From positions 124,001 through 188,000 of the forward strand of contig NZ_FSQW01000002.1 of assembly GCF_900128895.1 (NCBI RefSeq): a stretch of 64,000 nt of DNA. The letters run 5' to 3'. Under the pieces are notes generated by a model. The model was not told where the DNA came from and ran no database searches. It was given only the letters and a program-made list of their open reading frames with translations. This document shows positions 54,285-56,390 of this stretch, in pieces (the first letter of the stretch is position 1; every line of letters begins with the position of its first letter). Origin of the DNA: Parasphingorhabdus marina DSM 22363 (GTDB taxonomy: Bacteria > Pseudomonadota > Alphaproteobacteria > Sphingomonadales > Sphingomonadaceae). Made by a program: the position numbers and the translations under genes.

Positions 54285-54863
54285 ATGGCCAAGCTCTATT
54301 TCTATTACAGCTCGATGAATGCGGGCAAATCGACGACCTTGTTGCAGGCGGATTTCAACTATCGCGAGCGCGGTATGCGGACGATGGTATGGACCGCACA
54401 TCTGGATGACCGCGATGATGCCGGGTGGATCAACTCCCGTATTGGTCTCAGGAAAAAGGCGAATCTCTTTGACGATCAGACCGACATGCTGGCCGATATC
54501 AGCGCATTGCACGAGGAGGCTCCGCTGGACTGCGTGCTGATCGACGAGGCGCAGTTTCTAACCAAGGACCAGGTGTTCCAGCTGGCCCTGGTTTGTGACC
54601 AGCTCAAGATCCCTGTGCTCGCCTATGGGCTCCGTACGGATTTTCAGGCGGCGCTGTTCCCGGGTAGTGCGCAATTGCTGGCGATTGCGGACGAACTGGT
54701 GGAGCTCAAGGCCGTCTGTGAATGCGGCAGCAAATCGACGATGAACATGCGGGTCGATGAAAAAGGCAATCCCGTGCTGGCCGGGGAACAGACCGAAATT
54801 GGCGGCAATGAGCTCTATATCGCCCTGTGCCGCAAGCATTTTATGGAACGGCTCAATGGCTGA
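54285..54863 (+). CDS. tdk: thymidine kinase
   Basis: A 192-residue type II thymidine kinase. The P-loop SSMNAGKST is at about 9-17, DEAQFL is the Mg site, and a Cys4 zinc cluster is partly visible (VCECGSK, LCRKHF). It makes dTMP for salvage. It sits between rbfA and truB, where most relatives have no tdk. The GNAT gene overlaps its stop by 8 bases. Confidence 0.93.
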   Translation: MAKLYFYYSSMNAGKSTTLLQADFNYRERGMRTMVWTAHLDDRDDAGWINSRIGLRKKANLFDDQTDMLADISALHEEAPLDCVLIDEAQFLTKDQVFQLALVCDQLKIPVLAYGLRTDFQAALFPGSAQLLAIADELVELKAVCECGSKSTMNMRVDEKGNPVLAGEQTEIGGNELYIALCRKHFMERLNG

Positions 54864-55395
54864 ACTTTTACAGGTCCTCGAATGTGGACCCGTGCGGCTG
54901 GAACCACTGCAGCAACATCATCTGGAGCCGCTGCGGGCGGCCTGCGCGGAAGATCAGGAGATATGGGAGATTTATCCGGTATCGATGCTGGACGAAAATT
55001 TCGACAAGGCGATGCGGGCTTTTCATGACCTCAAGAGCTGGGCGCAATTTGCCGTGATCAATACCGAAACCGGTCAGGTGGTCGGCATGACCAATTATAT
55101 CAATCCGGACATGACCACGAAAGTTACCGAGATTGGCGGGACCTATATCGCACCTTCCGTTCGGGGCAGTGGCTTTAACGAAGTGATGAAGAAGCTGATG
55201 ATCGATCATGCCTTTGCCAGCGGCTTTACCCGGATCGAATTCCGCGTCGATACCCGCAACAAGCGCTCCATGGCGGCCGTCCTGAAGCTCGGCGCCAAGC
55301 ACGAGGGCACATTGCGGAAAAACCGGATCACCTGGACCGGATATGTCCGGGATACGGCGGTTTTCGGATTGCTGAAAGACGAGTGGAATCATTGA
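54856..55395 (+). CDS. GNAT family N-acetyltransferase (RimJ/RimL-like)
   Basis: A 179-residue acetyltransferase from ATG 54856 (inside the tdk end), preferred over a longer frame. VRLEPLQQHHLEPLRAA opens the fold, GTYIAPSVRGSGFNE is the acetyl-CoA loop region, and RIEFRVDTRNKRSMAAVLKLGAKHEGTLR is typical of RimJ/RimL relatives. Substrate unknown. truB begins inside its last codons. Confidence 0.85.
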   Translation: MAELLQVLECGPVRLEPLQQHHLEPLRAACAEDQEIWEIYPVSMLDENFDKAMRAFHDLKSWAQFAVINTETGQVVGMTNYINPDMTTKVTEIGGTYIAPSVRGSGFNEVMKKLMIDHAFASGFTRIEFRVDTRNKRSMAAVLKLGAKHEGTLRKNRITWTGYVRDTAVFGLLKDEWNH

Positions 55396-56390
55396 AACCC
55401 CATGGCTGGATCATTCTCGACAAGCCGCTCGAGCTGGGGTCGACCCAGGCCGTCGGGGCGGTGAAACGCAATTTGCGGGAGGCCGGCCTGCTCGGAAAGG
55501 GCAAAGACAAGCTGAAAGTCGGGCATGGCGGGACACTGGATCCCTTGGCGACCGGGGTGTTGCCGATCGCCATTGGTGAGGCGACCAAGCTGTGCGGGCG
55601 AATGCTGGATGCCACCAAGGTCTATGAATTCACCATCGCGTTCGGCAGTGAGACCGATACGCTTGATGCTGAAGGAGAGGTGACCGAAACGTCCGAACAT
55701 CGGCCGACGCTCGCGGAAGTAGATGCGGTTTTACCGCAGTTCACCGGGGAAATTGAACAGATTCCACCCAGATATTCGGCGCTGAAGATTGATGGCCAGC
55801 GCGCCTATGACCTGGCCCGGGCCGGGGAAGAGGTGGAGATGAAGATGCGGCGGGTGAAAGTGTTTTCGCTGTCTGTTTGTCATGCTGAACTTGCTCCGGC
55901 ATCCGTTTCTCCTCAAGCGCCGTCAAGAGATGAGAAGCGGACCCTGAAAGAAGTTCAGGGTGACGAAAAACTGCAATCGCTCACCCTCCGGGCCGAAGTG
56001 TCCAAAGGCACCTATATCCGTTCCCTGGCCCGCGATATTGCCGGGGAAGTGGGGACATATGGCCACGTCACCATGCTCCGCCGGACAAAGGCGGGACCAT
56101 TTGCGCTCAAAGACGCGATTTCACTGGACAAACTCAATGAAATTGGTAAGGGCGCGGACATTAAAGATTATCTCTTGCCGCTTGAGGCGGGGCTGGACGA
56201 CATCCCGGCTTTTGACCTCACTCCTGATCAGGCAAGACTGCTTCGGCAAGGCCAACGGCTGGACGAACGGGATTTGATCGGGAACCCCGCCATAAACGGG
56301 ACTTTTCTGGCTACTGAGGAGGGATCCCCGGTTGCACTGGCAGAGTCTGTTGATGGGATCGTAAAGGTCATCCGCGGGTTTAATGTGTAA
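55383..56390 (+). CDS. truB: tRNA pseudouridine(55) synthase with in-frame palindromic insert
   Basis: A 335-residue enzyme making pseudouridine 55 in the T-arm. The catalytic Asp53 is in [29 protein letters not shown] is the conserved C-terminal motif. Between VKVFSLSV and [13 protein letters not shown] it carries about 30 extra residues (166-195) that E. coli TruB lacks, encoded by a palindromic element at 55879-55964. The insert lies at a hairpin turn and leaves all motifs intact. Start GTG 55383 or TTG 55392, overlapping the GNAT stop. Confidence 0.93.
55879..55964. repeat. bipartite palindromic element, family B, inside truB
   Basis: Outer arms GTCATGCTGAACTT (55879-55892) and AAGTTCAGGGTGAC (55951-55964) are inverted with two mismatches. 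Right hairpin ACCCTGAA with TTCAGGGT (55941-55948, 55954-55961); left hairpin is decayed. CCGTTTCTC and GAGAAGCGG form the inner stem. It stays open in the truB frame, adding about 30 codons. Similar elements are familiar between genes in sphingomonads (from memory). Confidence 0.85.

Follow-up and report, generated by a model that had tools for sequence, protein, structure and literature searches.

A CGTC-type REP dimer read in frame within truB, at a turn that is probably a recurrent landing or exchange site for palindromes in Sphingomonadaceae

The window, a 64,000-nucleotide stretch of the genome of Parasphingorhabdus marina DSM 22363, contains truB, and within the truB reading frame lies a short palindromic element made of two REP units. 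The features are:

55383–56390, + strand: truB, tRNA pseudouridine(55) synthase; an open frame whose exact start codon is uncertain
55521–55544, + strand: GHGGTLDP motif, intact as read from the sequence
55878–55965, + strand: in-frame CGTC-type REP head-to-head dimer, recognized from sequence, folding and copies in the genome
55878–55905, + strand: left REP unit, with TGTC head, degenerate 8-bp stem, CTTGC loop and CCG tail
55906–55937, + strand: spacer of 32 bases between the REP units, translated too
55938–55965, − strand: right REP unit, with CGTC head, CTTCT loop and CCG tail, as read on the − strand
56004–56021, + strand: KGTYIR motif, intact, directly 3' of the hairpin holding the insert

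The gene product (55398–56387 in our analyses) is TruB according to Pfam (TruB_N/TruB_C_2) and TIGR00431, with 219.8 bits against a cut-off of 151.45. An earlier sequence-only reading had proposed that the truB frame passes through an inverted repeat at 55879–55964, which adds about 30 residues (166–195) missing from Escherichia coli TruB and leaves the catalytic motifs whole. The frame is indeed open across 55878–55965 in the ORF reading of the window, and the element lies where it had been placed, although it is one base longer at each end (TGTC from 55878, GACG to 55965). Both GHGGTLDP, which we take to be the motif with the catalytic Asp, and KGTYIR are unbroken. Aligned to chain 1r3f, presumably E. 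coli TruB, the protein matches as far as query residue 159 (chain 159) and again from query 195 (chain 168), which agrees with the insert being missing from E. coli. The extra residues are real, but their excess over the usual linker of 33 aa is 26. We infer that the insert sits at a beta-hairpin turn before KGTYIR, at about E. coli residues 160–167, the placement being conditional because it comes from alignment of sequences to solved chains.

Each REP unit of the dimer is 28 bases long. The right unit has a perfect 8-bp stem (ACCCTGAA/TTCAGGGT), and the copy is otherwise degenerate: the left stem contains a single mismatch and a single G-T pair, the right stem starts with AC, and the tails are CCG. 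Folded as DNA, the 86-base element beats 200 of 200 dinucleotide shuffles (z = −2.9).

Copies of the element are dispersed in its own genome, where blastn found 7 matches, itself included, and the 15-base arm with up to 2 mismatches gave 33 matches compared with 3 for a reversed control. A covariance model located at least 11 dimers (22 matches counting both strands), a lower bound from scoring 150 of 706 first-look candidates. Among these, truB is the only in-gene copy found: none of the other 10 lies in an open frame that extends 180 bases beyond the element on both sides (120 for three loci), so that the copies outside genes sought by the proposed whole-genome search are present. The consensus of nine own-genome copies, CGTCATGCTGAACTTGTTTCAGCATCCA...TGGATCCTGAAACAAGTTCAGGATGACG, begins with CGTC and ends with GACG, and its unit reads CGTC-ATGCTGAA-CTTGT-TTCAGCAT-CCA. 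A chance palindrome is ruled out by these copies together with the comparison across the family. Nor are the elements specially free of stops, with 1.60 of 6 frames open in 10 copies of the window family versus 1.64 after shuffling; for 33 copies of the family of locus L111, described below, the figures are 3.12 and 2.28.

We assign the element to the CGTC-tagged REP kind, as a new member. In the account of this kind by Di Nocera, De Gregorio and Rocco (2013, PMC3733652), as far as its main text goes, the units have a terminal CGTC, replaced by TGTC or CCTC in many copies, a stem of 8–9 bp usually starting with AT, a loop of 4–5 nt and a CCA-like tail, and they are dispersed mostly between genes with no dedicated transposase next to the copies. 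The window dimer has TGTC at 55878 and GACG ending at 55965, the own-copy consensus has the stem, loop and tail of this account while the window copy is degenerate, and of the 11 dimers 10 have no spanning frame. GTAG-tagged REPs and REPINs with RAYT transposases are likewise short palindromic units, often in inverted dimers, in what is described of them (PMC3116915), but the GTAG tag that they carry at one end according to the main text of PMC3733652 is missing from the window dimer, which ends in TGTC and GACG.

We compared the turn across relatives in two sets. The order-wide sample comprised 128 genomes, 67 of them Sphingomonadaceae, of which 64 were parsed; left out were G212 (gene split at contig ends), G270/L243 (unparsed) and G275/L241 (without insert by eye). 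The closest-relative set comprised 80 loci fetched by protein similarity, making 81 rows with the window, and because it was found partly via a peptide inside the insert and is therefore biased, frequencies are taken from the order sample. At least 10 extra residues are present at the turn in 42 of the 64 family genomes (range 13 to 83), and 22 have no insert. Of the 42 inserts, 21 gave a hairpin signal of z < −3, as against 0 of 42 for either of two control stretches of equal length from neighbouring parts of truB; in the closest-relative set, 67 of 81 rows have an insert, 53 of them with z < −3, and the controls gave 0 and 1. Alignments of relatives rule out an insert private to one lineage. 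The sequence-only reading had itself named a comparison of sphingomonad TruB proteins as the test that could refute it, and the insert residues are not common to all of them.

Repeat families were labelled by hand, replacing regular-expression labels that were unreliable. Labelled this way, 24 of the 64 family genomes have repeat-derived inserts, 20 of these with z < −3. The labels, their peptides and their counts are:

CGTC family, HAELVSAS...LKQVQGD: 6 in the family sample, 27 in the 81 rows
GGGGAC family, GRGT...PPPRAGED: 11 in the family sample, 12 in the 81 rows
GGGGTGGG family, PLPFRGG...PSPEGEG: 3 in the family sample, 4 in the 81 rows
CCCGCG family, HARESGNP...LDSRFRGND: 2 in the family sample, 2 in the 81 rows
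TCGA family, VRVERSRD...STSLDTNG: 2 in the family sample, 5 in the 81 rows
CTCTCC family, SPLEGE...PLPQGER: 8 in the 81 rows
RPDPYDP (RPDP) type: 16 in the family sample, 5 in the 81 rows
Other: 2 in the family sample, 4 in the 81 rows
None: 22 in the family sample, 14 in the 81 rows

The order sample shows five repeat families; the sixth, CTCTCC, comes solely from the 80 loci. The site is thus occupied by six repeat families across the Sphingomonadaceae, and the earlier view of one odd event does not hold. In 43 of 77 rows, which include members of all six families, the detected palindrome begins 0–10 nt downstream of one shared Leu codon. In the other 34 it begins outside this range, and by eye each of these is an inner stem, a second element or a decayed copy; 4 more rows gave no outer repeat. 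More than one element is present in the truB linkers of L073 and L218, which are very long (116 aa in L218), with CGTC-type and TCGA-type stretches in tandem.

Each of the other five families also has a dispersed member. A search with one insert per family against the genome it came from gave, on both strands and with the query included, 81 matches for CCCGCG (L111), 26 for TCGA (L093), 23 for GGGGAC (L075), 12 for GGGGTGGG (L110) and 7 for CTCTCC (L039). The L111 insert was the only CCCGCG query, and it also had 2 matches in the L044 genome. We read 38 further stretches of the L111 genome; a frame spans the element in 10, and three of these are recognizable genes with the element in frame:

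L293, 375–2159, − strand: trpE with an in-frame CCCGCG-type palindrome
L297, 108–2399, − strand: glyS with an in-frame CCCGCG-type palindrome
L288, 1–1611, − strand: NuoF-like gene, which we take to be possibly formate dehydrogenase beta, with an in-frame CCCGCG-type palindrome

The RPDPYDP-type inserts are conserved and non-palindromic, with a hairpin signal in 0 of 16. For these 16 of 64 family genomes a repeat origin is only a candidate, judged from sequence, and we counted them against the repeat explanation. A conserved non-palindromic insert of about 26 residues, SAFATTAGRPDPYDPQAPLELADS-like, was observed at the same TruB turn in L092, L099, L107, L108, L115, L154, L184–L186, L190, L191, L193, L194, L200–L204, L207, L208 and L213. 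The RPDPYDP or SAFATTAGRPDPYDPQAPLELADS-like insert may be a domesticated old insertion.

Beyond the family the turn is unbroken in nearly every genome sampled. A TruB profile lacking the insert found a match in 139 of 140 genomes of a phylum sample, with the match split at the site in 5 of 5 family genomes and unbroken across it in 133 of 134 others, the remaining one giving fragments with stops; where matches were unbroken, the DNA exceeded the profile by a net 17 aa at most, somewhere along the gene. We also read 52 loci outside the family, drawn from the 140 class-sample genomes and the 58 other-family order-sample genomes with a match. The 37 that could be parsed have linkers of 32–37 aa, and 15 were read by eye. 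Of these, L156 and L158 show about ten additional low-complexity residues close to the site, and in L157 and L173 additional residues lie upstream of it.

Length changes of at least 10 aa were found in 0 of 80 loci for rpsO, in 0 of the 30 loci having the gene for the upstream acetyltransferase, and in 15 of 80 for PNPase, where the 12 listed fall in the C-terminal tail (residues 708–742 of 757). A general looseness of the genes around truB finds no support in rpsO, the acetyltransferase or the PNPase body. In the window, the acetyltransferase-like frame (54757–55395) immediately precedes truB and runs into the beginning of the truB frame; of the 80 related loci, only 30 were found to have such a frame close to truB. 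At the trpE insertion site of the L111 genome, a similar insert was found in 0 of the 56 family genomes matched in one piece (56 of 63, at most 481 aa versus 495 in the query; the remaining 7 match in split or partial form or only distantly), and this gene, the sole control compared, contradicts the idea that any in-frame insertion site is equally busy. Short motifs resembling CGTC REP ends occur in the native flanks: GTGAC beside the turn in 35 of 64 family genomes versus 3 of 37 outside, and [GA]TCAC to its right in 38 of 64 versus 0 of 37. Since [GA]TCAC is unlinked to the presence of an insert (24 of 42 with, 14 of 22 without), landing by microhomology with these flanks is only an idea.

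Occupants of the turn are partly inherited and partly exchanged. On a tree of the 81 rows built from TruB without its linker, RpsO and PNPase, occupant labels change at least 37 times versus a shuffled mean of 49.4, and on the 64-row family tree 25 times versus 36.9; labels are more clustered than in the shuffles, so part of the pattern is inheritance. The CGTC label alone needs 12 changes by well-supported branches of the 81-row tree, and close relatives often differ in family, as do the sister rows L038 (CGTC) and L044 (CCCGCG). L045 has its GGGGAC element in the reverse of the orientation seen in L052 and L053, and the element is in frame in either orientation. The claim rests on alignments of 86–87% in reverse against 77% forward, given that reverse-minus-forward differences of 0.06–0.08 also arise in dissimilar pairs; L056, also aligned in this test, is outside the twelve highest differences. 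Either inversion in place or a fresh insertion in the opposite direction would give this orientation, and the two look the same here. Across L045:3475–3615 and L052:3475–3615, close relatives with the element in opposite orientation encode different peptides.

Amino-acid constraint is relaxed in the insert. Its dN/dS exceeded that of the core (0.02–0.15) in 10 of 10 comparisons. Four of these gave 0.24–0.44 and five 0.63–1.52, and the tenth, a pair with hardly any synonymous change, gave 5.8; the value of 0.63 comes from L045/L052, whose orientations are opposite, and is not readable as substitution. In 9 of 10 comparisons, all but L045/L052, synonymous sites had diverged less within the insert than within the core. 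This is not what is expected of an old insert drifting neutrally; recent replacement or a constraint on the DNA or RNA could explain it.

We consider it probable (about 0.8) that a CGTC-type REP dimer is tolerated in frame at the TruB turn and that the turn is a recurrent landing or exchange site in Sphingomonadaceae. The dimer would have inserted in frame at the beta-hairpin turn and been tolerated there, palindromes of six families would have come to occupy the same turn, and residents would later have been swapped, inverted, trimmed or lost. The elements may have moved either through mobilization in trans or through template switching during replication. What makes the site hot may be that the loop is tolerant and that a palindrome already resident there is unstable. 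Most likely the palindromes are selfish and largely neutral, turning over in a tolerant loop, with neutrality presumed for the enzyme as well. More tentatively, the turn might be a self-perpetuating palindrome-exchange site, filtered for an open frame, at which a resident palindrome would provoke repeated cleavage or template switching and be replaced, flipped or trimmed, the site then taking up whatever palindrome family is plentiful in the genome concerned.

It is rather unlikely that everything goes back to a single insertion in the ancestor of the family, passed on by vertical descent and overwritten in place by conversion from other repeats with few new insertions. The position common to the repeat families, the clustering of groups on the tree relative to shuffles, and occupants lying between the same flanking residues, with trimmed copies surviving (L079, L081 and L113 retain outer parts only, by eye), all fit such a history. 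However, six families with dissimilar arms make conversion hard, the rows without insert show a random-like scatter on the tree (13 changes versus a shuffled mean of 13.2), and of the 22 such rows in the family sample 13 have a linker of 32 or 33 aa, as is usual beyond the family. In L223 and L229 a palindromic element lies beside an RPDP insert, so extra insertions do happen. That the hairpin acts as RNA or DNA, for example tuning truB-rpsO-pnp expression, with the protein change a by-product, seems improbable: the palindromic form is common to six families and the low synonymous divergence of the insert would suit it, but 22 of 64 genomes do without, the RPDP lineage is non-palindromic, and there is no common sequence or size. 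Less probable still is an extended loop useful to TruB, as in RNA contact or chaperone activity, with repeats as raw material. Presence in 42 of 64 genomes and the RPDP form conserved in one lineage (dN/dS 0.44, L108/L115) speak for it, whereas sequence, length and family all vary, 22 genomes lack the loop, and the insert has a dN/dS of at least 0.92 in 5 of 10 comparisons.

Palindromic elements in Rickettsia were reportedly described by Ogata et al. in 2000 and 2002, and the sequence-only reading took them as the closest parallel to the truB insert. The behaviour is similar, with in-frame palindromes in conserved protein genes and copies between genes in both, as far as the descriptions in PMC2229807 and PMC2996958 go, but the lineage is another, the likeness is one of description rather than sequence, and we have not filed the sphingomonad element as an RPE. 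The nearest described class is the CGTC-tagged REP, to which two Rickettsia element families are assigned in the main text of PMC3733652. That text also reports REPs in truB of Stenotrophomonas maltophilia, Erythrobacter litoralis and Sphingopyxis alaskensis and names Rickettsia conorii truB as an RPE-1 host, so a REP-like element in TruB is not the unusual single case it had seemed. The window dimer shares with these REPs the CGTC/TGTC head, 8-bp stem, 5-nt loop, head-to-head arrangement and sometimes intragenic location, but a single truB site with several families, turnover and inversion is absent from the text of PMC3733652, its supplement aside, which places REPs in genes of one functional category at different sites, unlike those in two Xanthomonas recB genes. 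Enterobacterial RU/ERIC in-frame gene fusions are also small mobile sequences read as protein (Delihas 2007, PMC2759123; PMC2229807); by description they differ in host, and no shared site appears in the parts of those papers that treat them. Among titles and opening lines of abstracts, mostly outside subscription journals, no shared truB site, use by several families or exchange is described. Intragenic REPs are described as cases scattered over many genes, and the recurrent use of one TruB turn by several families is new relative to described intragenic palindromic insertions.

The truB site is a natural replicate experiment on how REPs without a known transposase move and how palindromes swap, and it lets one ask whether repeat-made peptides are neutral. 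Differences in TruB length within the Sphingomonadaceae are largely repeat turnover, and the turn should be masked in phylogeny. If the turn is indeed a self-perpetuating exchange site, TruB would carry a fast-changing, repeat-written peptide as a lasting trait of a bacterial family.
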